Assembly (NCBI RefSeq): GCF_007750395.1
Contig: NZ_CP036281.1
Coordinates: 2,317,001-2,381,000, forward strand
DNA: 64,000 nucleotides
Direction: 5' to 3'
From: Polystyrenella longa
GTDB lineage: Bacteria > Planctomycetota > Planctomycetia > Planctomycetales > Planctomycetaceae
Part shown: positions 782-59,500 of the stretch, piece after piece
Layout: each line of letters starts with the position of its first letter
How positions within the stretch are numbered: position 1 is the first letter of the stretch
Made by a program: the position numbers and the translations under genes
The notes under the pieces: model-generated
What the model was told of the DNA's origin: nothing
Seen by the model: only the letters and a program-made list of their open reading frames with translations
Databases searched by the model: none

Positions 782-1372
782 TTGAAAGGAACTGAAATCG
801 CTGCCCCATCCGCAGACGACGAAACGATATTCATGATCCCTGGTTTTATGTCGCCGGCGTGGATGCTGTATCCGCTTGAAAGGTCTCTCAGGAAACCGGG
901 GCGAACCCTGGTCCGCTGGGATTACCCTCATGTGTTCACAGATCCTTACCAAACGATCGACACTCTTTGTGAAGCGATGGTGAAAAGCAGCGCCCCTTCG
1001 ATTTCCCTGATAGGTCATAGCTTCGGAGACTGGATCGCTCGATCAGCGATTAATCAGAGCCAGCTGAAGTCAATCCGAAAACTGATCTCGATCTGTCCAA
1101 CTGTGGCTCCTGTGCCTTTCGCAAAAGTCTTCAAACCCATCATGGGAAAACTGGTGCCGGAACTCGTTGTGATGGCTGATAAGGAGCTGATGTCGACCCC
1201 GCTTTCGGAAAAAATGCAAATTAAGCGATCAAGCATATGGGCAAAAGTCGAGGTGATCGTGACTCGCCCCCAAGATTTCAAGGTGGACCATGAAATGTGG
1301 GCCTCGCATATTTCTTCTGTATTTCAACCCAGCGTCTGGCGAGTCATTGAAGAGGAGCTCTCATCGAACTGA
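782..1372 (+). CDS. Alpha/beta hydrolase fold protein
   Basis: A 196-residue alpha/beta hydrolase. The sequence has an oxyanion-strand segment IFMIPGFMSP (residues 17-26) and the nucleophile elbow GHSFG (78-82), with Ser80 the likely nucleophile. Residues after ~100 resemble the cap and late strands; a candidate His is in VDHEMWASH near the C-terminus. No signal peptide is visible, so it is probably cytoplasmic. Family members are esterases, lipases or permeases of acyl groups; the substrate cannot be told. Start: an in-frame TAG at 764-766 limits the frame to TTG at 782, or ATG at 833 which would cut the first strand; the Shine-Dalgarno is weak. Confidence 0.75.
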   Translation: MKGTEIAAPSADDETIFMIPGFMSPAWMLYPLERSLRKPGRTLVRWDYPHVFTDPYQTIDTLCEAMVKSSAPSISLIGHSFGDWIARSAINQSQLKSIRKLISICPTVAPVPFAKVFKPIMGKLVPELVVMADKELMSTPLSEKMQIKRSSIWAKVEVIVTRPQDFKVDHEMWASHISSVFQPSVWRVIEEELSSN

Positions 1373-8328: not shown

Positions 8329-8556
8329 ACTCTCTGCTGATTACCAGAAATGAGAGACACCAGCGGATCTCAGGCAAATAATAATCGCTAAGCATCGAAC
8401 TCTGTAAAATCAGGTGTCTGTGAGAGACTGGCTCCTCTCGTTCTTGAACGGCATACGGGTGATGCCATCGCTCCAATTCACAAAATAGTTTAATTAAGTT
8501 GCGGAGCAAGGCATCAATAGCTGATTCATTGACTAATAGTGTTTGCAAGCGGCTAG
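8329..8556. other. Start of a 1.4-kb gene-free scar region
   Basis: No gene seen. The rest of the gap up to 9787 is filled by the remnants listed separately (IS left part, tRNA pieces, copied gene tail, transposase remnant, IS right end). Confidence 0.4.
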
Positions 8557-8605
8557 AATTCCAGAGTAACTCCCCTCCTTCGCTTTGGAAACTGATTCGT
8601 TTAAC
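8557..8605 (+). repeat. Degenerate left internal hairpin of the scattered IS
   Basis: GAATTCCAGAGTAACTCCCC..CTTTGGAAACTGATT resembles the hairpin just ahead of the intact transposase gene (22839-22880), with mutated arms. Homology stops after about 8605. Confidence 0.55.
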
Positions 8606-8686
8606 TCCTGAACTCTTATGTGTGAGTTTGCTGGTCCTCACGTGTCTCGTTATTGAGTAAATTTGTTGGAATCTGTACCACTTAAG

Positions 8687-8716
8687 TAGGGATGACAGGA
8701 TTAGAACCCAGAGACG
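8687..8716 (-). repeat. tRNA-3'-end-like fragment (copy 1)
   Basis: GGGATGACAGGATTAGAACC on the + strand reads on the minus strand as a T-arm and acceptor end of a tRNA, similar to the fragment at 56344-56372. It is too short and changed for a functional tRNA. Confidence 0.45.
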
Positions 8717-8822
8717 TGAGTCTGTCCGATGACGCCAGAAAGTATGAACGAAAGCAGATTTTCTCGCCCAAACTGTGATTGCCGGAACGTCGATGAATTA
8801 TCGTAAGTCCTTTACTCACTTA

Positions 8823-8900
8823 GTACCGAAGTTGGGACTTGAACCCACACGGGGTTTACCCTCACTGGATTTTGGATCCGTGTTGAGATGTTAATCGGTA
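8823..8900 (-). pseudogene. Degenerate tRNA-Leu(CAA) remnant
   Basis: On the minus strand the ends TACCGA and TCGGTA pair as an acceptor stem, an anticodon region GGATCCAAAATCC (anticodon CAA, but C replaces the invariant U33) is followed by a long variable arm GGG-TAAA-CCCC of class II type and a T-arm GTGGGTTCAAGTCCCAA. The D-arm is shortened and lacks its conserved G residues, and the T-stem has one mismatch. So this is a decayed tRNA-Leu, not a working gene. Confidence 0.6.
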
Positions 8901-9016
8901 TTGCTTAAGTGTGCTCCTATTACACAAATGCTGTGCGGGTCACGTTTTCGATAAACGGTTATCGACCTATGTAGCGTGTTTAATCCTCGTTTAGGTAACA
9001 TTCTAGGTAACACTCC

Positions 9017-9100
9017 CTAAATTAGCACTTCGTCTGATTCTTCTTCCCGGCTGAGGAAGAGGTTGTCGGAGACAGGAGGGCCGACGGATTCGGTGTCTTG
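9017..9100 (-). pseudogene. Copied C-terminal tail of the giant FG-GAP protein gene
   Basis: On the minus strand this reads VGPPVSDNLF then EEESDEVLI and a TAG, matching the tail VGSPISDNLF...EEESDGVLI of the gene ending at 56599. Similarity continues past the stop (GGTAAC..TAGGTAAC motifs at ~8990-9010 and ~56572-56590). The upstream part is replaced by a transposase remnant at about 9100. Confidence 0.75.
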
Positions 9101-9490
9101 GAATGCGTTCTCAAAGATCCTTGGGAAATCATCTTCGCCGTTGATTCTACTATAGTGGAAGTCCGGACGATAACCGTTTTAATCACGTTTTCCATTTTGG
9201 TGATGAGGGAGTTGAAATTGTGTAGAGTTGAGATTACGGGAGTAACGACGAACCCAAATGTTAACTGGCTGCCTCTAGTAAGTTCACTGGAAGGGATGGT
9301 TCTCTGAAAGACGTGTTTCCCCTCTGATTATTGATCGTGATACGTGCCTTCGGCTACTCCGATTATCTTTAGGACCAGATTGAGATTGAACCGGGGCTTC
9401 TTTCTGCCAGAAGCCCCAGCATAAATACTTATCTCGATATTTGGATGAAAAGTCTGATATCCGAGTGATTGGGAATGATGATCTTATTCG
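9101..9490 (+). pseudogene. Decayed transposase fragment (same family as 22880-23959)
   Basis: Translation gives WEIIFAVDSTIVEV..GVTTNPN and, after frame breaks, a LIIDRDTC segment and a degenerate YLERF region, matching the DDE part of the intact transposase. Frameshifts, stops and deletions are numerous. The expected IS right end follows at 9508-9569. Confidence 0.7.
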
Positions 9491-9507
9491 ATCAAAACCC
9501 TCTCTCA

Positions 9508-9569
9508 TCAGCGATGTAGTCACGCGTATTTAATCATCTCCGACGACGGCTGAATTATTTAACGATACG
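9508..9569 (+). repeat. IS right-end copy
   Basis: Contains the motif CGACGGCTGAATTATTTAAC then GATACG, shared with the right end of the intact element at 24096-24153. Confidence 0.65.
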
Positions 9570-15065: not shown

Positions 15066-15359
15066 AATACGATACGGCTATGACATCGCCAAACGAAGAA
15101 ATGCCTGAGAATGATTGCCAGCATTACAGCAAGGTGAATTCGGGTGTTTATAAGAAAAAAGTGAACTTCGTCCAGATAGGAGAATTACGGGATCGATTCT
15201 TCCTATTGGACTGTTTATAGTGAATGGAACAATGGGTCAGGCTACTGGCATCACTAACTGGGTAGGTGAAGGTCAGTAAATTAAATTGTATAGCACGTTA
15301 TCCGCTTCTGAAACTGTACGAAGTGCCGATAGTGATATACCAATAAAAGGTGGGAACTG

Positions 15360-17270
15360 ATGTCGCCAGAAACCTCCGAAGAAAAAGAAACATTCGTCGA
15401 AACTGCTTTGAAGCTGGGGGGCAGTAGCGAAGACGAGGCCCGCAAAACCGGCGCTCTGGACCGGGCCGATGAACAGATGGAAAATTTGTTCAACAAGAAG
15501 TACCAGACCTCGGGGAGCCCGGTTCATCTTGCTGTGTGGGGTGATCGTTTTCCAACCGAACTGTTTAATTCCCAAGTGGCCACGGCGGACGCCGATGCTC
15601 AACAGGTGATGGAGGATTGCATCACCGTTGTGAAGGAATTGAAGCGTGAAGGACGTCTGCTTGACGAAAACCACAAAATTTCCGAAGAAACACTTCATCA
15701 ACTGGCCGAAAAGGGATACTGGGGACTGCTAGTCGACAAGGAATACGGTGGCAGCTTTGTCCCCTTCTCCGCGTTCTCTATTTTTCTGACCCGCATGGCG
15801 ACTGTTGATGCAACGGTTGCTGGGATGGCGTCCGTTCATGGTTGTATTGGCGCAGTCGATCCGCTTCGCGGGTTTGGGACACCGAAGCAGAAGCAGAAGC
15901 TCCTACCGGTTCTCGCCAGTGGGGAACGTCTCTCTGCGTTCGCGTTAACCGAACCCTGTGCCGGTTCGGACCTGACTGCCCTTCGCACCACCGCGAAACT
16001 GGATGGAGACGAATACGTCGTCAATGGAGAAAAGCTGTTTATTACGAATGTGGTTCCGGGAAGAACGATCGGGCTGGTCTGTTTGATCGAAAACAAACCG
16101 GCAGTATTGATCGTGGAACTGCCTCCGGAAGAGAACGAACATTTTCAGATCAAGCCGTATGGGTTGTGGGCTCTGAAGCATACTTATAATCAGGGAATAA
16201 TATTCAAGAATTTTCGCGTCCCTGAGGAGAACTTACTTGTCGCACCCAAAGGGGATGGCTTGACTATCGCCTACCACGGGTTGAATCGGGGACGAATCGC
16301 CTTGTGCGCAGGAGCGGCTGGCAGCATTCGGTTGATGCTCGCAGACATGCTGCCGTGGGCTCAGCATCGCGTGACTTATGGCGCGGCGATTGAAACTCGC
16401 GAACTCGTCCAGCGACGGCTCGGACGCATGGCTGGGCTGATCGCCGGCTGCGATGCACTGACGGAATGGGGCGGGTGGCTACTCGACCAGGGATTTCGTG
16501 GAGAAATGGAATGTATTGTTGCCAAAATCTTCGGTAGCGAAGCCCAGAAGGAAGCAGCAATAGAATACTATATGAAAACTCACGGAGGCCGTTCTTTCCT
16601 GCACGGGCACCTGTTTGGCGATAACGTCCATGAATTCCTCGCTCCCTGTATTTATGAGGGAGAAGGTGAAGTGTTGGGGCTCGCCTTTCTAAAGTCATTG
16701 ATCAAGGAACACGGAAAACAATTCTTCGAGCCGATCGGGAAAGTACTCTACGAGAACAAGATCAAGTCCCCGAATCCACTGAATCCGATGCACGCGTTTA
16801 AACTCGCACCGGTGGCGGGTCCTTATCTGGCTTGGAAGACACGCCAGAGTCTACCGGGAGCTTTTAAGCAGGCGGATTTGCCCGCGATGCCTCCGCGGTT
16901 GGCTGAACTGACTAGGTTCGCTGCGAAAGGATTGCAGCGTTCACGTCTCGAATGCAGCAACATGATGATGAAACATAAATTGAGTTTACCCAATCGTCAG
17001 TGTGCGATGTCGGAAGTCTCGAGCCGGATACAGAAGCTGATTGTGATGTTCGCGACTTGTATGTGGGCGGCGAAACAGAAAGATGAGCTTGTCGTTGAAG
17101 CCGCCATCGTGCTGGGACAGGATCTCAGACGGGAGCTGACGGGAGCCCGCGTCTCGAATGAAGAATTGAGAACTGTCACCAAGCTCGGGGCGGCTATTGC
17201 GGAAGGAAAGTATTCACCGATCGCCGATATCGACACTAATCCCATTCTCATGAACTATGAAAATGACTAA
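15360..17270 (+). CDS. Acyl-CoA dehydrogenase
   Basis: 636 residues, an FAD flavoprotein that puts a trans-2 double bond into acyl-CoA, the first step of beta-oxidation. Seen: FALTEPCAGSDLTALRTTA (middle-domain signature near 195-215), YGAAIETRELVQRRLGRMAG (~340-360) and the active-site loop YEGEGEVLGLAF (~440), which supplies the catalytic Glu. It has an N-terminal extension of ~60 residues and a C-terminal domain beyond ~480, as in the longer FadE-like enzymes. ATG at 15360 follows AAAGG. First gene of a four-gene plus-strand beta-oxidation cluster; a gap of 131 bases separates it from the next gene. Confidence 0.92.
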   Translation: MSPETSEEKETFVETALKLGGSSEDEARKTGALDRADEQMENLFNKKYQTSGSPVHLAVWGDRFPTELFNSQVATADADAQQVMEDCITVVKELKREGRLLDENHKISEETLHQLAEKGYWGLLVDKEYGGSFVPFSAFSIFLTRMATVDATVAGMASVHGCIGAVDPLRGFGTPKQKQKLLPVLASGERLSAFALTEPCAGSDLTALRTTAKLDGDEYVVNGEKLFITNVVPGRTIGLVCLIENKPAVLIVELPPEENEHFQIKPYGLWALKHTYNQGIIFKNFRVPEENLLVAPKGDGLTIAYHGLNRGRIALCAGAAGSIRLMLADMLPWAQHRVTYGAAIETRELVQRRLGRMAGLIAGCDALTEWGGWLLDQGFRGEMECIVAKIFGSEAQKEAAIEYYMKTHGGRSFLHGHLFGDNVHEFLAPCIYEGEGEVLGLAFLKSLIKEHGKQFFEPIGKVLYENKIKSPNPLNPMHAFKLAPVAGPYLAWKTRQSLPGAFKQADLPAMPPRLAELTRFAAKGLQRSRLECSNMMMKHKLSLPNRQCAMSEVSSRIQKLIVMFATCMWAAKQKDELVVEAAIVLGQDLRRELTGARVSNEELRTVTKLGAAIAEGKYSPIADIDTNPILMNYEND

Positions 17271-17401
17271 TCCTACAGAAGTGTGTATTGTGCAGGGATG
17301 TGTGATGAGTATCGTAATGGAAAAGTGTTGAAGTCGTCGCCCTGCGTGGCGGATATCGTGAGATGTCATAACCGAATTGCTCGACGGGAGTATAAATTCC
17401 A

Positions 17402-19573
17402 ATGGAAAAAGCGTTCAAATTCGAGGTACTCGATAGAGATATTGGTTTGATCGTCTTTGACATGGCTGGTCGGTCGGTCAATACTTTCTCTCAAAGTGTG
17501 ATGAAGGAACTTTCGGATCTCGTCGATTCACTGAAGGAGCGAGATGATTTGCGTGGGTTGCTGTTTAAGAGCGGCAAAGAGGGGCAGTTCATCGCGGGGG
17601 CCGACCTCAAGGAGTTGGGAGCGCTCGCTTACGCCTCCGAAGCCGCCCGCCGGACTGGAATGCAAGTCGGACACGACTTGTTTAATAAATTCAGTGAACT
17701 CCCCTTCCCGACCATCGCGCTAGTGTCTGGCAATTGTATGGGAGGTGGAACAGAACTTATTCTGTCGATGGATTACCGTATCGCCGGCTTGCATCGGTCG
17801 ACGAAAATCGCCCTGCCCGAAGTTAAGGTCGGCATCATCCCAGGTTGGGGGGGGACTCAGCGTATGCCGCGCGTAGTCGGCATCCACCACGCCATCGATA
17901 TGATTTGCTCCGGCGACCCGGTTGATGCGAAAAAAGGAGCCGAAATTGGTCTTGTTTTCGATGCGGTACCGGACGAAGGCCTGATCGACGCCGGTTGCCG
18001 CTTGATTGACTATACCCAGGAAACGGGTGAGTGGAAAACGAGCCGAGTCAAGTTCCAACAGCCAATGGGTCTCAGCGAAGATCAGTTGAATTTCAATTTC
18101 GCAGTCTCGGAAGGTTATATCAAAGGGAAAACCAAAGGCCAATATCCGGCCCCGCTCATTGCCTTGAGTGCAATGAAGAAAGGGCTCAATCTGCCTCTCG
18201 AGCAAGGCCTGCAGGTCGAGATCGAGCACTCGATGGAAGTTGCTGGTACAGAGACTTCGGCGAACATGATATCCGTCTTTTTTGCGAACAATGCTGTTTC
18301 CCGCGACAAAGGAGTCTCCAATCCGAATGTTGAACCGCGAGAGATTAAGACGGTGGGCGTGCTTGGTGCGGGCTTGATGGGAGCAGGTATTGCTACAGCC
18401 CATGCACGCTCGGGTTTTCCTACCGTTATGGTTGATGTCAACGAGGAAGCGGTCGCCGCCGGATTAAAACGGGCCAGCGATGTGATCGGCAAACGAATCA
18501 AGATCAAGCGGGCGTCGCACGAAGACATGCAAGATCTACTTGCTACGCTGAACACGTCTACGTCCACGACCGCATTTCAGAATTGTGATGTCGTCATTGA
18601 AGCGGTTCCAGAGAAGGAGGAATTGAAGACGAAGGTCTATCGAGAGCTCGCCAAAGTCATGCGTGACGACGCCATCCTGGCTTCGAATACTTCAACGATC
18701 TCGATCACTCGAATGGCGGAGGCAGCTCCGAATCCCGAGAGGTTCGTAGGAATGCACTTTTTTCTGCCCGTTGACCGTATGCAACTTGTAGAAGTTATTC
18801 GGGGTAAGAAGACTGACGACGAAACGGTCGCCACGATTGTCAGTCTGGCGAAAAAGATTCGCAAGATTCCCATCGTCTGTAATGACTGCGCCGGTTTCTT
18901 GGTCAACCGCATTCTGCTTCCTTACATGAACGAAGCCATGCTCCTTCTACTTGAAGGGATATCGATGGATCGTATCGACAAAGTGGCCGAAAGATTCGGC
19001 ATGCCGATGGGGCCGATTGCTCTGAGTGACATGGTCGGCATCGATACCATGTTAGGAGCGGGTAAGGTTATGGACGCCGCGTACAGCGACCGAACGGTGA
19101 AAGTCAATATCGTCAATGAACTCGTCAAAGCGGGGCGACTCGGCAAGAAGAGTGGGGCCGGCTTCCGGCAGTTCACGGGGCCCAAGGCAAAACCGGCTCC
19201 CGATCCAGAGTTTGATCCTATTTTTGAGAGTTGCAAACTTGACGAAAAGGAACTCTCCGATGAACAAATTCAAGACCGCCTCTTCCTGTCTATGCTACTC
19301 GAAGCGGTGCGGTTGTTGGATGAAGGGATTGTTGCCAGTCCGGCTCACGTCGATATGGGAATGATCCTTGGGACCGGATTTCCCCCCTTCCGTGGAGGTT
19401 TACTGCGGTGGTGTGACAATGAAGGGGCTGCGAACATCGTCGACCGCGCCGACAAACTGGCCCCTCTCGGAAAGCGATTTGAAGCTCTGGACTCGCTGCG
19501 CCAGATGGCGAAAGAGGACGGTAAGTTCTATCCGGTTCCGAAAGATATCGTTGCGATGTTGAAGGAGAATTAG
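17402..19573 (+). CDS. Bifunctional enoyl-CoA hydratase / 3-hydroxyacyl-CoA dehydrogenase (FadJ/FadB-like)
   Basis: 723 residues, normal for the trifunctional alpha subunit. The N-terminal crotonase domain (~1-190) has the oxyanion hole segments IAGADLKEL and NCMGGGTELILS and the catalytic-acid region EVKVGIIPGWGGTQRMPR. The NAD-binding domain starts near 318 with GVLGAGLMGAGIA, followed by SNTSTISIT, GMHFFLPV and the C-terminal dimerisation domains with ALSDMVGID. It hydrates enoyl-CoA and then oxidises the 3-hydroxyacyl-CoA with NAD+. It sits between the acyl-CoA dehydrogenase and the thiolase, completing the pathway order. Confidence 0.93.
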   Translation: MEKAFKFEVLDRDIGLIVFDMAGRSVNTFSQSVMKELSDLVDSLKERDDLRGLLFKSGKEGQFIAGADLKELGALAYASEAARRTGMQVGHDLFNKFSELPFPTIALVSGNCMGGGTELILSMDYRIAGLHRSTKIALPEVKVGIIPGWGGTQRMPRVVGIHHAIDMICSGDPVDAKKGAEIGLVFDAVPDEGLIDAGCRLIDYTQETGEWKTSRVKFQQPMGLSEDQLNFNFAVSEGYIKGKTKGQYPAPLIALSAMKKGLNLPLEQGLQVEIEHSMEVAGTETSANMISVFFANNAVSRDKGVSNPNVEPREIKTVGVLGAGLMGAGIATAHARSGFPTVMVDVNEEAVAAGLKRASDVIGKRIKIKRASHEDMQDLLATLNTSTSTTAFQNCDVVIEAVPEKEELKTKVYRELAKVMRDDAILASNTSTISITRMAEAAPNPERFVGMHFFLPVDRMQLVEVIRGKKTDDETVATIVSLAKKIRKIPIVCNDCAGFLVNRILLPYMNEAMLLLLEGISMDRIDKVAERFGMPMGPIALSDMVGIDTMLGAGKVMDAAYSDRTVKVNIVNELVKAGRLGKKSGAGFRQFTGPKAKPAPDPEFDPIFESCKLDEKELSDEQIQDRLFLSMLLEAVRLLDEGIVASPAHVDMGMILGTGFPPFRGGLLRWCDNEGAANIVDRADKLAPLGKRFEALDSLRQMAKEDGKFYPVPKDIVAMLKEN

Positions 19574-19707
19574 TGTTGTTGTCGCTCTGATTCCCAGATT
19601 TTTCCTGCAGATCAGTGTTTGTCTTATCTCATTCTTATCTCGAATCTCAGAATCACGTGTACTTCTGACGAAGTCTCGGATTGTCGAAATGATATGTGGA
19701 GAACAAC

Positions 19708-20871
19708 ATGAAACAAGCGGTCGTCATAGATGCCGTTAGAACCCCTGTCGCCAAAGCCTCTCCCGATAAAGGAAACTTCAGGGACGTTCGTGCTGAGGAT
19801 CTCTCGGCCCACGCAATCAAGTCGCTCGTTGAACGCTCAGGAATCGATCCTCATCTCGTCGAAGATGTCAAATGGGGTTGCGTACAGCAACAAGGTGAAC
19901 AGGGGTACGATGTTGGACGTATCGCGTCTCTTATAGCGGGGTTACCGATCGAAGTGGCTGGCGTCACCGTCAACCGGAATTGTGGATCAAGCCTTACTGC
20001 ACTCAACGACGCTGCGATGTATATTGCCGCCGCCAACGATGATATTCAGATTGTGGGTGGCGTCGAGCACATGCATCACGTACCGATGGATAAGGGGTAC
20101 AGCGTAGCCCCTTCTCTCTTGTACAAATACAGTGAAGCGATGATGAACATGGGCGTCACGGCAGAATACCTCTCGATGAAATATCAGGTCGGCCGTGTGG
20201 AACAGGATGAGTTCTCTGCCCGTAGTCATCAACTCGCCGCCGAAGCGACTAAGGGCGGACACTACGAGTCCGAAATCGTACCCACTTGGGGCCGAAATGA
20301 TGAGGGGCACAAGATCTTGATCAAGCAGGACCAGGGGATCCGATACGACTGCAATATTGAAGGACTTGCTTCGTTGAAACCGATTTTCAACCCCGCGGGA
20401 GGATCTGTTACTGCTGGGAATTCCTCCCAGCTAAGTGTGGGGGCGGTCGCCATGTTAATGATGTCCGAATACAGGGCCACGGAACTGGGCTACAAGCCGA
20501 TGGCCAAAGTCATTGCCAATGCCGTCGTCGGAGTCGACCCGTGTGAAATGGGGATTGGTCCGGTTCCTGCTGTCAATAAAGCGCTAGAGCGAGCCGGTCT
20601 GACGATTGACCAGATCGGCGCCATCGAGCTGAATGAGGCATTCGCGGTACAGGCACTGTCGGTTCTCAAGAGTCTCGGAATCGGCGTCGACACCGTCAAT
20701 CTTCGTGGAGGCGCGATTGCGCTCGGGCATCCACTCGGAGCCAGCGGTGCCCGCATTGCCACGACCCTGCTACACCGCATGCGTGATGAAAATGTCAGAT
20801 ATGGCATCGCCACTATGTGTATAGGTCAGGGACAGGGAATTGCCACTATTTTTGAATCTTGCATGGTTTAA
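19708..20871 (+). CDS. Thiolase (acetyl-CoA acyltransferase)
   Basis: 387 residues from the chosen start. Catalytic residues are visible: the acyl-accepting Cys in NRNCGSSLTAL (~90), ELNEAFAVQAL (~315), His in GGAIALGHPLGASGAR (~345) and the second Cys in CIGQGQGIA (~375). It cleaves 3-ketoacyl-CoA with CoA, releasing acetyl-CoA. ATG 19708 is preferred over the in-frame GTG 19696 because GGAG lies at the right distance before it and KQAVVIDAVRTPVAK is the usual thiolase N-terminus. Confidence 0.93.
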   Translation: MKQAVVIDAVRTPVAKASPDKGNFRDVRAEDLSAHAIKSLVERSGIDPHLVEDVKWGCVQQQGEQGYDVGRIASLIAGLPIEVAGVTVNRNCGSSLTALNDAAMYIAAANDDIQIVGGVEHMHHVPMDKGYSVAPSLLYKYSEAMMNMGVTAEYLSMKYQVGRVEQDEFSARSHQLAAEATKGGHYESEIVPTWGRNDEGHKILIKQDQGIRYDCNIEGLASLKPIFNPAGGSVTAGNSSQLSVGAVAMLMMSEYRATELGYKPMAKVIANAVVGVDPCEMGIGPVPAVNKALERAGLTIDQIGAIELNEAFAVQALSVLKSLGIGVDTVNLRGGAIALGHPLGASGARIATTLLHRMRDENVRYGIATMCIGQGQGIATIFESCMV

Positions 20872-20911
20872 ATCATTTCTGGGATGAGGACCGCGCCGGG
20901 GAGTGCTCTAT

Positions 20912-22615
20912 ATGACTACCTATTCCAATCTGGTGTCGATGAATCGCGCGACATGCGCAGAAGCTGGACCACGAACGGCGATCCGTTTCAGGCGTTTCGG
21001 TCGGTACACCGACCTCACATGGAACGAGGTCCGCTCGCAGGCGGACCAGGCTGCCTCCGGCCTCATCCAGTTGGGGATCCAGCCGGGAGACCGCGTTGCG
21101 ATCTTTTCCGAGAACAGGCAAGAATGGATTCTCACTGATCTGGCGATTCTTTCCACGGGAGCTGCTGACGTTGCAATGCATGCACCGCTGGCCCCGGAGC
21201 AGGCGGCTTACCAACTGGAGCACAGCGGGTCACGCGGCGTATTCGTTTCGAATCAACAGCAGGCAGATAAAATCTTCGACGTGATCGATCAGTTGCCCGA
21301 CTTGGAATTCCTGATTTCCTATGAGTCCGTCTCATCCTCCGTCGATGAATCCCGTCTTAAAGTGCTTTCCTGGGATGGCTTGAAGCATCGCGGTTGGTCA
21401 CAATTGAAAGAACTTCGAATCGAAATCGATTTTCGGGAACAATCAATCACCGGGGAGACTCTTGCAACTGTCATTTACACGAGCGGGACAACGGGCCCCC
21501 CCAAAGGGGTGATGCTCAGCCATGGTAACTTAATTACCAATGCCAACGCGGTACTATCAATTTCGGAGATTCACCCCCAATACGTAATATTGAGCTGGTT
21601 ACCTTATAGCCACATCTATGCACGGACGGTCGACCTCTATATCAGTCAGTTGGTGCAGGGAGTCATCGCCCTAGCTGAGTCCGTGGAAACACTCGTCGAC
21701 AATTTGAGGGAAATTCAACCTCACTGGATGACCTCCGTTCCCCGATTTTACGAGAAGTTGTGGAGTAGTATTGAGCGTCTTCCCGAAGAAAAACGCGCTC
21801 CCGCCTTGAAAGGTATATTTGGTCGCCGATTACATCACTTGGCATCAGGAGGAGCGCCACTGCCGAAACAGATCTGTGAGACGTTTAACAATCTGGGAGT
21901 TCCCCTGTTGGAAGGATATGGACTTACCGAAACCTCGCCGGTGATCGCCTTCAATCGATTTGGCCAAGTCAGACCAGGTACTGTCGGGCAAGCAGTTCCG
22001 AGGGTTGAGATTAGGATCGCCGAAGATGGAGAGATCCTCAGTCGCGGACCACATATCATGCAAGGGTACTGGCAGAATCACGAAGCCACCTCGAAAGTGA
22101 TTGTAGATGATTGGTTTCATACTGGAGATATCGGAGAGCTCGACGACGAAGGTTTTCTTAAGATCACTGACCGTAAAAAGGATATCATCGTCACGTCCAG
22201 TGGTAAGAATATCGCCCCGACGGAAATCGAACGTCTGCTCAAAATGGCTCCACTCATTGATCAAGCAGTTGTCTATGGCGACAACCGGAATTTCATTACA
22301 GCGATTCTAGTACCCGCATTTGATCTGCTCGAATCAACGCTGAGAGATCAAGGAGTGCGTTTACAGAGCAAAGCTGAATTCATCGATCAGAAGGAAATTC
22401 TTGAACTGTATACGAAGGTCGTCGAACAACAGATGATCCAGGTGAGCAATCCTGAACGGGTCAGGCGGTTCCTGGTTCTCTCCCGGCCCTTCTCCTTATC
22501 AGAAGACGAGCTAACAGCAACCCAGAAAGTCCGCCGCCGCCACGTCATTGATAAATACCAAGAGGAGCTGAATGCCCTATATACCAATGTCGCTCATCTG
22601 GAAGATAGCGACTGA
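20912..22615 (+). CDS. Long-chain acyl-CoA synthetase (AMP-binding)
   Basis: 567 residues. The adenylate-forming signature YTSGTTGPPKGVMLSHGN is near residue 186, GYGLTETSPV near 335, TGDIGELDDEGFLKITDRKKD near 405 and the C-terminal lid follows. It activates fatty acids to acyl-CoA using ATP, feeding the dehydrogenase, hydratase and thiolase encoded just upstream. ATG 20912 follows GGGGAG by eight bases and is preferred over the GTG at 20903. Last gene of the cluster; a hairpin overlaps its stop. Confidence 0.92.
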   Translation: MTTYSNLVSMNRATCAEAGPRTAIRFRRFGRYTDLTWNEVRSQADQAASGLIQLGIQPGDRVAIFSENRQEWILTDLAILSTGAADVAMHAPLAPEQAAYQLEHSGSRGVFVSNQQQADKIFDVIDQLPDLEFLISYESVSSSVDESRLKVLSWDGLKHRGWSQLKELRIEIDFREQSITGETLATVIYTSGTTGPPKGVMLSHGNLITNANAVLSISEIHPQYVILSWLPYSHIYARTVDLYISQLVQGVIALAESVETLVDNLREIQPHWMTSVPRFYEKLWSSIERLPEEKRAPALKGIFGRRLHHLASGGAPLPKQICETFNNLGVPLLEGYGLTETSPVIAFNRFGQVRPGTVGQAVPRVEIRIAEDGEILSRGPHIMQGYWQNHEATSKVIVDDWFHTGDIGELDDEGFLKITDRKKDIIVTSSGKNIAPTEIERLLKMAPLIDQAVVYGDNRNFITAILVPAFDLLESTLRDQGVRLQSKAEFIDQKEILELYTKVVEQQMIQVSNPERVRRFLVLSRPFSLSEDELTATQKVRRRHVIDKYQEELNALYTNVAHLEDSD

Positions 22616-27968: not shown

Positions 27969-29384
27969 TTAATCCCAACTTCGATGCCAAAGTGCCATGC
28001 CAACATGGTTTTTGACTGCTCGGTGAACCTCAGATTTAATGAGTTCAAATTGTCCTTTTTTATTATGGTGGTGAATAGTATACTTCACTCCATCAATTTT
28101 AACTGTACCATTATCACGACTGTGTGATATGCCTTTCCTCTCCAGCTCTTCACTAACTTCTATAAAATCATGACGTCGCATGTCTAATTTGTCATCTTTG
28201 CTGAGGCTTTCCCAACTTCTTCCTGCTGGAGGACGGGCGTAGTCCGTTACTTTGATTCGATCTTGTAACGCTTTTGGTTTTGTACTTCGAGAAAAGATCG
28301 CGATATCGTCACGGATTTTCCAATGTTTAAACCGTGACACTCGAAACTCTACTCCATCCACCTTGACAGATTGGATTCTACTAAATTTGGCCTTCATTCC
28401 TCTTGAGAGGTTAACAACACTACCTCTGCCTATCGCTCCACTCATAGCTGCCGATGTACCCATCATCATGGGGCCGGGGGCATCTTCCACCGGATCATCG
28501 CCATAGAACTCTTCGTAGGTTAGTTCGTTCGGGTCATCAAAGTCCAAAAAGATGTCTAATGGGTTTATCTCAATGTTAGTGAAGGGGATGCTGATTCCAT
28601 ATGCTCCATAAACACCCCATAGAAGAGCGGCTTTTACCCAAGTGTTATCGTTCCTGCTTCCCCAACTGTCAGGTAAACTGAAATCAGCAGCCCATTCAAT
28701 GTCCCACTGTAAGTTAACGGCATAACCTTCTAGTACTGCTTTGTAGCTCTCCTGTATCCAATCTCCCGGACCAGGCAATGCAATAACTGCGGTCATGATA
28801 CCCGTAGTGGCAAGCATCCCTGTTACGGAAAACATCCCGGTCGGGTCTATTCCGTTCACCGGATCACCGTGTGTGTACAGGTACTTATGAAGACTCTGCG
28901 GGTCGTCTAGGTTTCCGAAAAACGGATCCACTCGATTAAAGCCACCTGTCAGTGCATTATAATAACGGGCTCGCAGGTATTGTTGCTGGATGCGAGTATC
29001 ATACTGTTCGCCACTGTAGAGCAGGCTGGTAATTGCATTGGCTTCACTGAAGCCGATGGCTATGCCGTAGGCATCGTAGGCGAAGATCTGCGGAATGCTA
29101 TTGTAAATTGTGACCGCTGCGAGCATGTCGGTAAGCATGCGGACGGAACCATGACCGTCGTGCAACATGATGCTGTTCAGGCCGGTCGGGTTCGCGCTAT
29201 CGTATTTGACCTGTTGCAGGACATCGAGACCGAGTGTGTAGATCACCCGTTCCGTTTCAGACATGCTGTTCAGGTTGTCAACTGTCACTTCTTCAATGAC
29301 CTGCGAGTAACCGGTGTGGTTCATCGGATCGTTATATGTGCTTCCAACTGCTACAGACTTTCGAAAACCATTGTTCTTCAGCAA
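27969..29384 (-). CDS. 5'-truncated RHS protein with HNH/Endo VII-like (WHH-type) toxin tip
   Basis: 471 residues from TTG. The first ~15 residues come from IS right-end sequence read backwards; from YNDPMNHTGYSQVIEEV on it is nearly identical to the RHS core of the neighbouring gene, with YLRARYYNALTGGFNRVDPFF and GDPVNGIDPTGMF marking the tip junction (~180). The tip (~290 residues) ends in YTIHHHNKKGQFELIKSEVH followed by HVGMALWH, the HH...G...L..vH...H.G pattern of HNH/Endonuclease VII toxins (WHH/LHH groups). So a DNase-like tip is likely. Two immunity candidates follow. Confidence 0.8.
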   Translation of the reverse strand: MLKNNGFRKSVAVGSTYNDPMNHTGYSQVIEEVTVDNLNSMSETERVIYTLGLDVLQQVKYDSANPTGLNSIMLHDGHGSVRMLTDMLAAVTIYNSIPQIFAYDAYGIAIGFSEANAITSLLYSGEQYDTRIQQQYLRARYYNALTGGFNRVDPFFGNLDDPQSLHKYLYTHGDPVNGIDPTGMFSVTGMLATTGIMTAVIALPGPGDWIQESYKAVLEGYAVNLQWDIEWAADFSLPDSWGSRNDNTWVKAALLWGVYGAYGISIPFTNIEINPLDIFLDFDDPNELTYEEFYGDDPVEDAPGPMMMGTSAAMSGAIGRGSVVNLSRGMKAKFSRIQSVKVDGVEFRVSRFKHWKIRDDIAIFSRSTKPKALQDRIKVTDYARPPAGRSWESLSKDDKLDMRRHDFIEVSEELERKGISHSRDNGTVKIDGVKYTIHHHNKKGQFELIKSEVHRAVKNHVGMALWHRSWD

Positions 29385-44423: not shown

Positions 44424-47400
44424 CTATTCGGCATCCCCTTCCACCAGCGTGTTGTTAATGCTAATTGCGCCGTAGAAACTGTCGGTGGGGATGCTGAAGA
44501 TCTCACCCGCGCCGGTGATTAAATTGCTTTCTCCGGTGAGAACCAGAATATCATCGATCGACTCAAAAATCAGTCCACGATCAATCAACGTTGAACTGGT
44601 ATCCAGAGCGAAATTGTTACCCGAGAACTGAACGTTGCTGTCTTCACCTACATGCTCGAACAGAGCGCCTGTCGCGCTGTCTTCTGACGACGTCAACAGC
44701 GTGGAAAATATCGCCACGTTCGATTCGTTACCAAGGTCAAACAAGAATCCGGTCTGATTTGACTCGTCCAGGAACAGGTAATTTGTATTCGTGGCAATGG
44801 TCGACTCGCCAGCCGTCTTGACGTCAATTGCGGTGTCATTCACTCCATTCAACCTGAACAAGTTCTGCTGCATGGTGATGGAAGTCAGTTTACTGGTGGA
44901 AAGGCCATCGAAGTCAAAGGCAACTTTGTCCCCATCCTCTGTGACGAACTCGTTGCTATACAGCGTTGTAGAAGAGGTACCATTCCAGTCGATATCTAAA
45001 CCTGCCACTGCAGAGTTCGCCAGATAAACATCATTGCTGTGCAGTATCACCCCGAGGGTCGATCCCGCACTACCCGCCAGAGTTTCAATCTGAATCGCAG
45101 AACCGTCATTTGCCGCCAGAATAGAGTTGCTCAGGGTAAACTCATAAGCCCCTTTCTCGTCTGCCAGGAATCTGATGCGGTTATGGTCGGCGTTTCCGTT
45201 CGACTCAAGTAACGATTCATCGATATTTACCAGACGAGTGTTAAAGGCATCGACTCCCCATTCATCCACATTCCGAATGAAGGCATGGGAGAGGTATACC
45301 TCGTTTGAGTCAACCACTTTTAACCCGGTCTGATTTCCATCCAGAAGCATGAACTGGAAAGCGACCTTCTCCGATCCGGAAACGTAGATAGCCGCTTCCG
45401 CTCCAGTAATAGTACCACCTGACGAGTCTTCTTCATCCCCAAAGACAATGACTTGACCATCGGTATCTACCACGCGGATACCATATTGAGCATCCGAACT
45501 GGAAACACTATCCAAACTGATATCAACCGTGGAACCTTCTACATCCAGTGCGGTACCACTGACGGTTTCAATCGATCCTTTGTTGATCGTTACATCATCG
45601 CTGTTACTAATCGCGAGGCCAGTTCCATTTTCGTTAGAAACATTTAACTCATCAACAGTGATACTTCCACTGTTGTCAGTGAGCTCCACCCCGTCACCAT
45701 TGCCTGCGAGTGCAACATCCACTGTTCCGAATGAGACCTCGCCTTCGAAGTTTTCGACAATGAGCCCATGATTACCGGAATCTTCAATGCTGGTATCCCC
45801 ATTAAACGTAACGGTTCCATCTCCTCCATTAATATGAAGCGCGGTCCCCGATGTATGGTCGATTGAAAGATCGTTGAAGGAGAGGTCCTCGTTGATTCCA
45901 GCGAGATAGATTCCCTGTCCTCCCGATCCACCAAAAGTCAACTCGTCAAAGGTGATCGATCCAGCCGAGTAGTTGACAATCTCCATCCCATAACCAGTGG
46001 AGTCGTAAATTCCGGCATCCAGGTGAATATCCGCCCGGTTATTCAGTATCGAGACCCCGTTCCCTGTACTGCCTTCGATTGTGATGTCATCAAACACAAA
46101 TGTTCCAGCAACATTGTCGAGACCAATACCACCACCTGAGTTCTGAATATCGATATTTGAAGCGTAGCCGTTCGTTGATCCGTTTGCATAAATTCCATAT
46201 CCCCCCGCACCGTCCACGACGAAGCCTGCAATCTCGGCGTTGGACTTAAGCTCAAATGCATTGCCTACGCTGTTAGTCAGGGTCGGCAATTCCGAACTGG
46301 ACGTTGCCGTTGGTAGAAAATAACTACTAAGGGTTCCGTTCTGCATAAGATAAGTTCCCCCTTCACCATAAATTCGCTGTCCTGTTGCAACCGTGACGGT
46401 CTCTGATAGAACGCTGCCACCATGCACGAGGATGATATCCGCACCGGATGCCTGCGCATCCGCGATTGATTCAAACGGATCGTCGACCGAGCCAGCATGA
46501 GTTCCCCCGGCAGGTGTTCCGTTCGAGGAGACGTGCTTAACCGTCAGCTCGTCTCCAGAGCCTGCTCCCTGACTACTCAGGTCACTTCCAGCACTGGTTA
46601 CAGACAGGCCGATCTCGTTTTCTACTCCATCAGCAACGATGACGTTGTAGTTACGATGCACAAACCCTTCAAGCATGTTAACAGGTCGACTCGTTTTCGA
46701 TCGACCAGGACCGCTCGGGAACATGTAATGAATCGCCAGCATGACGTTGTTTCCAAACGTGTCGTCGCTCGTATACTCGACCTGAGTCTGGAATGATTCG
46801 CTCACATCGCCTTGCAGTCGCACCTTGTATCCGTCGATGTCCTCACCCGCATCTCCCTCAAAGTGATACAGTCCACCGAACAAACGTACGTTATGGTCTT
46901 CAGTGAAGTCTGTCGGGATGAGATAACCAATCTCGACATCGACCCCCTGATAGGCCTGATTGGTTCGGCGTTCGAGGTCGTAGATGATCGAGGTCCCTGA
47001 ATACCGGTAGTTGCTATCCCGAACTCGGGTATCTCCCTGGGTCTCCCCGATCGGGAAATAGAAGTTTGCCCGAGCGTCCCATTTTTCGGCATAGGTTTCG
47101 AGACCGAATCCCAGCTGATGAAACATGTCTTCGCTGGTTTCGTCAATATCATAAAAGAAGTTGGTACCGATGACTGTCTTGTTAGCCACTTCTTGTCGAT
47201 ACCCAAGACCGATGTTTCCACCATACTGCAGATCGTTACTGAGAAAGAAGCGGAAGTCGGTAAACCACATGGTTCCGTCTTCAATCATATACGGCATCAG
47301 TTCAAGGTTGGTGATGGAATCATCTCGACCGAAGGTCTGCAAAGCATTGTAACCCAGTCGCCCGATAACGCCGGGGCCATCTGCAGATTTTTCCTCCCGG

Positions 47401-47603
47401 TCCCTCCTTCGGCTCTGACGATAGTCAGTCGTTCCATCGTTCGTTCCTTCCTCGTCACTGACCGTTCTGCTTTCAGCGTAGGCACGCGTTTCGAGTGAGC
47501 CGATAAGAAGGTGCTCGAGGGGAGCGAGCGAAATGTTCAAAAGCAGCGAAGCTCCAATCAGAGAAGCTGACCGAAAAAAGCGTTTGAATAGAGAATGGGC
47601 CAT
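44424..47603 (-). CDS. Inverse-autotransporter-type beta-barrel with right-handed beta-helix passenger
   Basis: 1059 residues. Order: a long signal peptide (~1-43), an N-terminal outer-membrane beta-barrel (~75-310; strands such as MWFTDFRFFLSNDLQYGGNI, GTNFFYDIDETSEDMFHQLG and NVMLAIHYMFP) as in inverse autotransporters, a linker with SVDDPFESIADAQASGADII, then a long repeat of helix coils (~400-1050) with motifs like GNGVSILNNRADI, GTGLAISNSDDVT and GTALDVEGSTVDI. Such a passenger is probably surface-exposed. No peptidase or adhesin motif was found. The downstream gene on the same strand is the YHYH gene only on the opposite strand, so this is a single transcription unit. Confidence 0.85.
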   Translation of the reverse strand: MAHSLFKRFFRSASLIGASLLLNISLAPLEHLLIGSLETRAYAESRTVSDEEGTNDGTTDYRQSRRRDREEKSADGPGVIGRLGYNALQTFGRDDSITNLELMPYMIEDGTMWFTDFRFFLSNDLQYGGNIGLGYRQEVANKTVIGTNFFYDIDETSEDMFHQLGFGLETYAEKWDARANFYFPIGETQGDTRVRDSNYRYSGTSIIYDLERRTNQAYQGVDVEIGYLIPTDFTEDHNVRLFGGLYHFEGDAGEDIDGYKVRLQGDVSESFQTQVEYTSDDTFGNNVMLAIHYMFPSGPGRSKTSRPVNMLEGFVHRNYNVIVADGVENEIGLSVTSAGSDLSSQGAGSGDELTVKHVSSNGTPAGGTHAGSVDDPFESIADAQASGADIILVHGGSVLSETVTVATGQRIYGEGGTYLMQNGTLSSYFLPTATSSSELPTLTNSVGNAFELKSNAEIAGFVVDGAGGYGIYANGSTNGYASNIDIQNSGGGIGLDNVAGTFVFDDITIEGSTGNGVSILNNRADIHLDAGIYDSTGYGMEIVNYSAGSITFDELTFGGSGGQGIYLAGINEDLSFNDLSIDHTSGTALHINGGDGTVTFNGDTSIEDSGNHGLIVENFEGEVSFGTVDVALAGNGDGVELTDNSGSITVDELNVSNENGTGLAISNSDDVTINKGSIETVSGTALDVEGSTVDISLDSVSSSDAQYGIRVVDTDGQVIVFGDEEDSSGGTITGAEAAIYVSGSEKVAFQFMLLDGNQTGLKVVDSNEVYLSHAFIRNVDEWGVDAFNTRLVNIDESLLESNGNADHNRIRFLADEKGAYEFTLSNSILAANDGSAIQIETLAGSAGSTLGVILHSNDVYLANSAVAGLDIDWNGTSSTTLYSNEFVTEDGDKVAFDFDGLSTSKLTSITMQQNLFRLNGVNDTAIDVKTAGESTIATNTNYLFLDESNQTGFLFDLGNESNVAIFSTLLTSSEDSATGALFEHVGEDSNVQFSGNNFALDTSSTLIDRGLIFESIDDILVLTGESNLITGAGEIFSIPTDSFYGAISINNTLVEGDAE

Positions 47604-55978: not shown

Positions 55979-56131
55979 CAGTCCTTCGGAGAACGATGGT
56001 CTACCCGCGTGCCCGCCCAAGTGCTGATGCAAATGATGAGGCATGAAAGTATCGATACGACGCTTAAGTATTATGTTGGTCGAAATGCCGAGGTCTTGTC
56101 TGACGCGATTTATTCCAGCGTAAGCAGGTGA
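55979..56131 (+). pseudogene. C-terminal remnant of a tyrosine recombinase (integrase)
   Basis: Fifty codons reading FGERWSTRVPAQVLMQMMRH, then ESIDTTLKYYVGRNAEVLSD and ending in VSR and TGA. RH in the M-RHESI box and the Tyr of KYYV fit the conserved His/Arg and catalytic Tyr of phage-type integrases. All upstream parts are missing, and the IS3 element abuts it. Confidence 0.8.
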
Positions 56132-56202: not shown

Positions 56203-56343
56203 AATATCGCTAGCGCGATCGTGGAATTTGTGAAAAGAAGACAAGCGGTATGGGTAGATGTGTGGGCGAGAATTCGCCAAGAGAGCTGATTTGGTGATTC
56301 AATCTTTGAGGTCTGGTCGGCGGGTTCACCTATAGTCCGCAAC

Positions 56344-56372
56344 TCGGGATGACAGGATTTGAACCACAGGTC
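56344..56372 (-). repeat. tRNA-Pro-like 3' end, possible attachment-site half
   Basis: On the minus strand GGTTCAAATCCTGTCATCCCGA resembles the T-arm and acceptor 3' end of tRNA-Pro. Integrases often recombine in such tRNA ends. The integrase remnant lies 210 bases away. A second copy is at 8687-8716. Confidence 0.5.
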
Positions 56373-56397
56373 CTGGAAGTGACCAGATTTTAGTGTT

Positions 56398-56450
56398 AAT
56401 ACACCTACAGCGTAAATCGATCGTTTTCAATTTTGCTGAATATATTTGCG
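56398..56450 (+). repeat. Solo IS right-end copy, weak
   Basis: AATCGATCGTTTTCAATTTT and GCTGAATATATTTGCGGTTAG resembles the IS right terminus. No transposase remnant nearby. Confidence 0.4.
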
Positions 56451-56598
56451 GTTAGTGTTTGCCGTCGATCAAATCCTTGAGACTAAGAAAATCCCGCTCT
56501 CTGAATTAGAAAGCAATGTTCAAATGAGCATGTTTCTGCGATGAGTAATACAGGGTGTTCAACTCTTGCCCAGGTAACATTTCAGGTAACCCCCCCCC

Positions 56599-59500
56599 CT
56601 AAATCAGCACTCCGTCTGATTCCTCTTCCCAGCTGGCAAAGAGGTTGTCGGATATTGGTGAACCGACGGGGGCCATAGATTGGACGTGGAGGTTGTCGAA
56701 CCAGCTGAAAGCGTTGGCTGTCGCGAAGCCGAGGGCTCCCCGAGTTATATTCGAGTCAAAAGAAAACGCGAGCAGTGCGGTTCCATCCACCAATAGGGTC
56801 GCCTCTTCACCATCGAGTCGAACATCGAGATGATAGAACTGGTTGAAGTTGATTTGCTTCCCTTCGTTGTTCCAGCCTCGGGTTGCCAGCACATTGTTCC
56901 AGTTGCCCTGGTAATGGCCGATCACCCATTCGTTCCGGCCCGTGTAGAACCCGACGAACTTGAAGTCGTTCTCATTCTTATAGTCGAAGATGAGGAATGC
57001 ATCGTTCCAGCCACCATTGGTGGACTGGTTGGAGCGCACGTCGGCAGAGAACTCGAGTGGTTCTCCATCGGGATTATCGATTGGAACTGTTGCGATTGCA
57101 TTCTTCTCGGAACCGGAACTGTTCGCCCGCAGGACCTGATTTCCACCATAATTCGCGAACCCCCAGTAAACGAGATTGTTGTAATAAGTATGGTCGGCGA
57201 GCCTGTCGTTATAGTTTTTCAGGTAAGGTATCGATACCGGTTTTCCAGTGGAGACATTCGTATCAACCATTAAATTGTCGAACCGGGTCACGGCATTATG
57301 AGCCGCCACACCGATGGTCCCCTGCTGAATCCCACTGGTGAAGGTAGCATCCGCTATGGAGAGACCATTCACTCGGAGTTCGACATGGTCTCCATCAACG
57401 GAAAGATGGAGTTGGTAGGCGGTGTTTACATTAATGCTCTGACCGACATCATCCCAGTCGACTTGAGCCAGTCGATTGTTCCAGTTGCCCTGGTAGTGGC
57501 CGATGACCCACTGATTCTGGCCCGTGAACATCCCGGCGTATTTGAAGTCGTTGGGACTCTGGTAATCGAAAACTAGAAAACCATCTAGCCAGCGGTTGGT
57601 ACCTCCCATCGAAGTGATCTGTCCCGAGAACTCGAACTGATTAGGTAACAACCAGTCGTTGTTCAGAAAGGCAACCCCCAGCCCTTTGTTGCCCGACGCG
57701 TCGATCTGAAGATACTTACTCCCCGCCGGTCCGGCGACGGTCCAGAGTGAGCCCTGGTGATAGGCCGACTGGTTGAAGAAACCATCATTGAAGTCTTCGT
57801 AGAACGGCAAGTCAGTGGGGGCGCCGGCGTCGACTTTCTCGGCGACTTCGAAGTTATCAAACCAGGTAAAGGCCCGATCGGCGGCTAAACCGACGGCGCC
57901 GGTATTCACATTGTTACTGAAGGTAGCCGAGGTGATGAATTCCCCGTCGACAGACAGGCGGGCGGTGGCCCCGTCGATACGAACGTGAACAGTATAGAAC
58001 TGATTCGGATTAATCTTCCGACCCGAATCATCCCAGTCCACGACGGAGAGCTTGTTGTTCCAGTTGCCCTGGTAGTGACCGATCATCCATTGGTTATGAC
58101 CAGTGAACATCCCGGCGTATTTGAAATCCTTGGGTGATTTGTAATCGAATATGACAAATCCATCCTGCCAACCTGATCCAGATTGAATGGATAACATCCG
58201 GGCCGACATTTCAAATGCGGCGGGTGTCTCCTCAGGCAGAGGCATGTAGGTGATACCCAGGTTGGTATTGCCCGAGTTATTAATACGGAAGACTTTCCCC
58301 CCTGCTCCGTTGATTACGGCCCAGTTATCAAACAGAGGATAATAAAATCCGTCCGCGGAACCATCTTCAAAGTTTTCTTTAAATGGCAGCGGTTGCGGTG
58401 CTCCCGTAGAGACCTGCTCAGCCACTTCAAAGTTATCAAACCGCGTCACGGCATTGTGAGCCGCAAGCCCGACACGTCCCTGATTCAGCGGTTGGGCGAA
58501 GGTGGTTGAAGTCACGGGTAACCCATCAACCATCAGGCTGACGGTAGAACCCTCAATCCGGAGATGGAGTGTGTAAGCTCTGTTGACCGAGATGAATTGC
58601 CCACTGTCGTCCCAATCAACGACGGACAGTTTATTCCCCCAGTTGCCCTGATAATGACCAATGACCCACTGATTCTGCCCGGTGAACATGCCAGCGTACT
58701 TGAAGTCGTTCTCGTTTTTGTAATCAAAGATCAGGAACCCATCCAACCACCGATTAGGCCCTCCCACAGAAGTGACTTCGGCCGACATCTCGAAGGTGGC
58801 GGGGAGTGGCTGTTTAGATTCGAAAAGAGCCGTGCTTAATCCGCTGAGATTCCGGTTATCCATTACTAGCTGATCATTCTGATTGATCAATTGAACCGTC
58901 ACGCGTTCGAGATCATTGATCTTCAGTCCAGCCGTATCCCCAGCATCGAATCCCAGCATCAGGGGTAGTGGTAACTTACTGTTAAGTAGAACATGGTGAC
59001 CAATATAGTCATTCACAACGAAGAGATCGATGGAACCATCATTATCAAGATCGCCTATTTCGAAAAAGAGACCAGGACCAGTTTCAATTGTCTGTTTATA
59101 AATGAATTGATTTGAAGTACCCATGAGGAAGAGGATAATTTCATCGTCCGCGCGGACAATAGCATCCAGGTCTCCGTCTGCATCAATATCGGCCAGTTTC
59201 AGGTCGTCTACTTCTGGATAATCATAATAGCTGGAAGACTCAATGAAGCTTCCTGCGCCTGAATTCGCCAAGTACATCAGATTTTCAGAGGTGGTTTGAG
59301 ATACATACAGAACATCGAGATCACCATCTCCGTCCACGTCTCCTGAAGTGACATGCTTACCAATGAAACGTAAGCCAGTCGGGGTGAAATTGCCGAAACC
59401 ATCATTGAGAAATAAGGAGGGAGTACTTTCATCGTCGTTGTTGTAAACTTGGAAAAAGTCAATGTCACCGTCGCCATCAAAATCGCCACTAGTAGCAAAA

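Follow-up and report, generated by a model that had tools for sequence, protein, structure and literature searches.

Between 8.4 and 9.6 kb of the window analysed here, a 64-kb stretch covering positions 2317001-2381000 of a planctomycete genome (a single contig of 6,125,480 bases), parts of an insertion sequence (IS), tRNA pieces and the tail of a gene lie side by side. What kind of event leaves such a scar? A first-pass annotation explained the mosaic by the duplication of a block between this site and 56.34-56.7 kb, which was then cut by the IS. Our comparisons make another origin highly probable, namely that the patchwork is what has survived decay of an attachment site at which tRNA islands had joined one another in tandem, and that insertion sequences cut it later. 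The scar is then a fossil example of a known process: the kind of event is ordinary, and its record is unusually legible.

Parts of the scar

The scar opens with a left-end remnant of an IS of about 1.5 kb with an rve/HTH transposase (8399-8597, plus strand, IS positions about 23-221), which an own-genome search matched at 63-68% to copies elsewhere in the genome (E 1e-9); position 8557, where the mosaic had been taken to start, falls within this remnant. After 86 bp there follows a copy of the 3' end of tRNA-Pro(GGG) with about 85 bp of flank (8684-8791, minus strand), for which the closest sequence is 2448397-2448504 (2448.40-2448.50 kb), beside tRNA-Leu, at 81% over 108 bp. Its T-arm and acceptor portion (8688-8708) differs by 2 mismatches in 21 from the 3' end of the tRNA-Pro(GGG) gene, intact at 2584547-2584620 on the minus strand.

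The next segment (8802-8879, minus strand, no gene called) consists of half a terminator and the 3' half of a tRNA-Leu(CAA) that ends in the anticodon arm. In a whole-genome search it matched the 3' half and terminator of the intact tRNA-Leu(CAA) at 88% (E 2e-21), a gene that ARAGORN places at 2448649-2448734 on the minus strand, 123 kb to the right of the scar. The presumed crossover core, GGATCCG (8874-8880), is placed where this homology ends. Sequence matches to other arms then identify a likely element arm (8926-9013, plus strand) with direct repeats GGTAACATTCTAGGTAAC at 8994-9011, which is 74-83% similar to arms at 5.51, 5.53 and 5.55 Mb. We name such arms P on the element side and P' on the integrase side, labels of our own that follow the usage for phage lambda. 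Beyond the P arm lie the last approximately 23 codons of a lost giant gene (9017-9087, minus strand), reading ...VGPPVSDNLFLSREEESDEVLI-stop in an in-frame alignment, and finally the 3' part of the transposase and the right end of the IS family, with an internal deletion (9089-9569, plus strand), 67% similar to intact copies. All pieces named in the first-pass annotation are thus present and match above chance. The near-equal length (about 490 bp) of the middle of the scar and of the missing IS part was taken as coincidence.

As expected for pieces that are fragments, ARAGORN called no tRNA gene and Rfam gave no match within the 64-kb window, and the scar therefore holds neither a functional tRNA nor a known RNA. 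Base composition takes no clear step at 8.9 or 56.5 kb and so speaks neither for an island nor against one.

The IS family is abundant, with at least a dozen near-full copies in the DNA examined, and it flanks or abuts many of the junctions described below as well as the scar. This abundance would suit an explanation in which scattered IS copies recombined, by an IS-mediated or a homologous route, and so brought unrelated scraps together, with the tRNA halves and the repeats as bystanders. Such gathering, however, gives no reason for the break of the tRNA halves within the anticodon arm: the tRNA-Leu copies at 2436.27 kb and in the scar both run from the terminator, of which the scar has half, to that arm. 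It also fails to account for the 12-bp-spaced repeats that accompany the halves, and we consider it improbable.

Related junctions and their repeats

The direct repeats at 8994-9011, their counterparts at 56573-56590 and the matching sites beyond the window had all escaped the first-pass annotation. Behind the core, the junctions carry direct repeats spaced 12 bp, AGGTAACA-4-AGGTAACA. The exact pair GGTAACANNNNNGGTAAC occurs eight times in 6.1 Mb, five times within 2.326-2.449 Mb and three times within 5.51-5.55 Mb, against a chance expectation of about 0.2 in the genome by base-count arithmetic, and all eight sites found genome-wide sit at tRNA-island-type junctions. The spacer of the repeats is CTTT in both integrase-side arms of the Leu array and TTTC in five of the six element-side arms of the genome, the sixth (TTCT) being that of the scar. 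A degenerate arm with one mismatch at window position 425 was set aside as likely chance.

The first-pass annotation had suggested looking for the same block elsewhere in the genome. An own-genome search with the scar does recover its modules, both at the intact tRNA-Leu(CAA) (2448.4-2448.7 kb) and at 2436.14-2436.48 kb. At 2436.14-2436.48 kb the junction keeps both arms around the tRNA-Leu 3' half, and the tRNA-Leu and arm portion of the scar is closest to its segment 2436.27-2436.48 kb (74% over about 212 bp). Here the core reads GAATCCG (2436.35 kb), as it does at an IS-borne junction at 2433.47 kb. In the latter, the P side begins exactly at GAATCCG inside an IS transposase gene, aligned to the core of the 2436.3-kb junction, and the right half of the interrupted gene resumes at 2435.24 kb. 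Since the P side starts at GAATCCG in a gene that is not a tRNA, the core can be read independently of the tRNA; the 2433.47-kb junction fits an insertion at a secondary site and would thereby mark the core.

Behind the 2433.47-kb arm lies a ParE/ParD-like gene pair, and a sister pair follows the 2436.48-kb arm (both named by eye from open reading frames). Such pairs at two junctions, together with short repeated junctions beside large genes, could call to mind an integron-type or other cassette system with folded recombination sites in place of tRNA-gene islands. The conserved repeats, however, are direct with a spacing of 12 and not inverted, the junctions hold real halves of tRNA genes, and the integrases of relatives adjoin intact tRNAs; on these features a cassette system seems very unlikely.

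The second site in the window lies at 56.3 kb. It holds a tRNA-Pro(GGG) 3'-end copy (56340-56366, minus strand; 26/27 bases identical to 2448396-2448422), a P' flank with repeats GGTAACATTTCAGGTAAC at 56573-56590 (56495-56597, plus strand) and, abutting the arm with its 3' end, a giant FG-GAP/DUF11 gene of 2384 aa (56599-63753, minus strand). With the gene tail left out, the scar aligned to 56300-56598 at 32.8 and 26.5 bits, compared to 24.7 bits for the best of 300 dinucleotide shuffles; the match thus exceeds all 300 and is better than chance outside the gene tail, the point on which the first-pass annotation had staked its reading. The tRNA-Pro-like end and the gene tail do stand in the same order at both sites, and this order, with a similarity that extends past the gene tail, is what an ordinary duplication of one block between 56.3 and 8.7 kb, disrupted afterwards by an IS, would explain.

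The resemblance is nevertheless confined to the 20-bp tRNA-Pro end, a repeat arm and the gene tail. Between these shared parts the sites differ, and each is nearer to other junctions (2448.4 kb; 2436.1-2436.5 kb) than to its supposed partner, the 56.3-kb site being closest to 2436.14-2436.24 kb (91% over 103 bp). The gene tails (8993-9087 against 56572-56669; 80%, E 8e-17) run in frame to the same stop, the encoded ends being VGPPVSDNLFLSREEESDEVLI in the scar and VGSPISDNLFASWEEESDGVLI in the 2384-aa FG-GAP gene; they differ in 20% of their bases yet keep the frame, as homologous genes do. We therefore regard the duplication of a single block as unlikely. The arm at 56.3 kb itself is mixed, with a left flank of P' type and a spacer (TTTC) and gene tail of P type, and is for this reason read as the product of a deletion between two arms that took the tRNA half and the core. 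On this comparison the 56.3-kb site is a related junction whose core was probably lost through recombination between the repeats, and it would not be the source of a copied block.

Outside the Leu array, a copy of the 3' half of tRNA-Ser(GCT) at 5551.4 kb, 72 kb from its gene, ends in the anticodon loop (98% to the gene over 105 bp) and carries the same P arm. This tRNA-Ser(GCT) gene thus has an island region of its own, the second in the genome, which spans 5479.8-5551.5 kb and includes three P arms as well as two large genes whose ends lie at arms. In two of the Ser-island arms, as in the scar, the end of a large gene comes next (open frames of 2016 and 1437 aa, stop to stop). This suggests that the tail in the scar, which had been described as a copy of a gene 47 kb away, is better read as the end of a homologous giant gene that stood beside the arm.

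With up to 3 mismatches, the tRNA-Pro 3' end is found at only five places in 6.1 Mb, two of which are themselves tRNA-Pro genes, while the sequence read backwards as a control gave none. At 2448.4 kb the Pro end includes a terminator-like stretch, and this combined segment has 78% similarity to the end of the native tRNA-Pro. The Pro end may mark a fused-in tRNA-Pro element; the presence of the piece at three sites is only partly explained, and fusion with such an element is a guess. Taken as a whole, the scar-like sites are modules of one repeated junction type that arises from site-specific integration at tRNA genes.

The integrase remnant and its relatives

A further part of the array had been overlooked. 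At 55988-56128 (plus strand), ahead of the 56.3-kb site, the window encodes the last 47 aa of a tyrosine integrase, with the motif RHES..TTLKYY. A Pfam scan of this tail alone gave no match, so that its identity rests on alignments: it shares 62-74% identity with integrases of its own genome that adjoin tRNA-Leu(TAG), tRNA-Thr(CGT) and a 3' half of tRNA-Leu, and with those beside tRNA-Ser in two genomes of the same genus, G096 and G097. No intact integrase of this kind remains in the Leu array, the search with PF00589 listing none at 2.0-2.8 Mb and the 47-aa tail being all that is found. Elsewhere in the genome, within 3167201-3169968, a tRNA-Leu(TAG) is flanked by two different tyrosine integrases.

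In G096, where the integrase is whole, and in G097, where a contig end cuts it, the repeats overlap the stop codon of the integrase or follow it closely, in the order integrase, repeats, terminator, intact tRNA-Ser(GCT). The contig of G096 is syntenic with the tRNA-Ser flank of our genome at 5471-5479 kb. A gathering of scraps by IS recombination again meets a difficulty here: the relatives have these repeats too, placed at the end of the integrase next to tRNAs that are intact, and in G096 and G097 integrase, arm and tRNA follow one another with no IS between. Together with a third module, in which G044 keeps integrase, repeats and tRNA-Pro(GGG) side by side, these loci share with the window junctions the AGGTAACA-type repeats spaced 12 bp, an integrase end that adjoins the repeats and a tRNA on the opposite strand. 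The integrase is intact in G096 and G044, whereas in the window it has been reduced to its 47-aa tail and the arms.

To see how common this arrangement is, 170 genomes of the family were searched at E 1e-40; 62 matched, and 30 loci among the matches listed were analysed. An intact tRNA lies within 200 bp of the integrase stop in 22 of these 30 listed loci, is overlapped by the integrase reading frame in a further 3, stands at about 0.8 kb in 1 and is lacking in 4. Its identity spans ten amino-acid types among the 30 listed loci, including Pro(GGG) in G044 and Leu(CAA) in G100. When the two loci of our own genome are added, a 7-mer repeat at a spacing of exactly 12 follows the catalytic end in 21 of 32 loci, compared to 0-2 loci for each other spacing from 8 to 20; the remaining 11 have no 12-bp repeat. 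Spacing 12 is somewhat in excess in 260-bp background windows of these loci as well (38/575), in part because the windows take in these same sites. When genome contigs were searched with the integrase of G096, only two loci were recovered; both belong to metagenome assemblies, and one has the same sequence as the query.

The integrase remnant, the break in the Leu fragment, the junction-specific repeats and the position of the repeats at the integrase stop in relatives together lead us to the attachment-site reading of the scar. More tentatively, it is conceivable, if rather doubtful, that one integrase lineage in this family, with its paired 12-bp-spaced arm sites at or directly after the end of its own gene, has spread over at least ten tRNA types, that its leftover half-sites act as recombination joints, and that the system both shuffles backbone genes and carries giant surface-protein genes. 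If this is true, half-site recombination would have produced the arm-to-arm fusions, the off-target entry into a transposase gene and the displacement of a fatty-acid oxidation operon beside the scar.

Proposed history and known systems

Direct observation covers the fragments with the way they point and the place where they break, the repeats, the remnant of the integrase and the intact prototypes in relatives. A history that would connect them is as follows. The tyrosine integrase of the islands would insert at the anticodon loop of tRNA genes, probably binding the arm repeats. A first element would have entered tRNA-Leu(CAA) and, by contributing a 3' half of its own, restored the gene. The half-site copied in this way would then have received further elements with that specificity, and a head-to-tail array would have grown, its intervals presumably once single elements. 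Each junction would then run from an integrase end through P' arm repeats, terminator, tRNA-Leu 3' half and core to P arm repeats, followed at several junctions by a giant gene pointing toward the arm. The scar would be such a junction minus its P' arm, and the 56.3-kb site one that lost its core through recombination between arm repeats. IS insertion and deletion beside the scar may afterwards have taken the integrase side and the giant gene, sparing its tail. The sequence of these steps is a proposed one; the later IS cut of the first-pass annotation stands in outline.

This arrangement can be compared to systems already described. In Islander (PMC4383910), three features define a tRNA island, namely an intact tRNA, an integrase and a displaced fragment, and tandem arrays are counted: for 3919 islands in total, the table lists 125 tandems with at least two members and 4 with at least three. 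As in those islands, the Leu array has an intact tRNA at one end (2448649-2448734, with a P' arm behind its 3' end) and 3' fragments in the same orientation on the 3' side of the gene (2436.27 kb and window 8802-8879), a break at the anticodon subsite and a tandem build. Measured between window 8.8 kb and 2448.7 kb, its length of about 123 kb falls within the 2-200 kb admitted by Islander. By contrast, the array has no intact integrase gene inside it, its four junctions differ in how far they have decayed, a tRNA-Pro end is present in addition, and one of the intervals holds backbone-type genes. Since all but the tail of the integrase gene is absent, we class it as a decayed relict and not as a functional island.

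A review (PMC5704250) likewise describes elements that decay to attachment sites only and then accrete. The Leu array resembles these CIMEs and tandem ICE/IME accretions in two respects: its decayed elements keep attachment sites, and accretion runs head to tail, each site-specific integration using the copied end of a target gene. At 2436.14-2436.48 kb both element arms surround such a copy, while the scar keeps one arm and the 56.3-kb site is a fusion. Compared to that account, no conjugation or mobilisation gene was seen here among the 31 window proteins scanned with Pfam, and the case is known from sequence alone. Our literature search, with most subscription journals outside its coverage, found no paper on tRNA islands of Planctomycetes.

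The tRNA halves, the core and the arm repeats make the patchwork readable, so that island insertions in a planctomycete genome can be ordered, and the 12-bp-spaced repeat behind the integrase end offers a simple sequence signature for relicts elsewhere. Three routes of decay are displayed, namely arm-to-arm deletion, erosion by IS and loss of the integrase.

Several results count against the attachment-site reading. To the right of the scar, the array contains a fatty-acid oxidation operon (window 15348-22585) with 80-90% protein identity to G096. There the operon is directly followed by a relative of window 782-1372, a gene that in our genome lies to the left of the scar. A conserved operon in an altered gene order indicates that backbone DNA has been shuffled and that the interval between the scar and the 56.3-kb site is not simply foreign DNA. 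In G096 the 10 kb that precede the operon had no match in our genome. Apart from the integrase tail, Pfam found no mobilisation, phage or conjugation gene among the 31 window proteins scanned. An empty tRNA-Leu site was not found: the synteny of fabF at tRNA-Leu is not kept in G097, which has no tRNA beside fabF and, leftward, nothing that matches the DNA examined.

Finally, two proteins of the window carry domain matches of their own. A putative 471-aa protein (27972-29384) has a weak C-terminal Colicin-DNase match in Pfam (E 2e-4, below the curated cut-off), and a 1059-aa protein (44427-47603) has inverse-autotransporter beta-domain and beta-helix matches.
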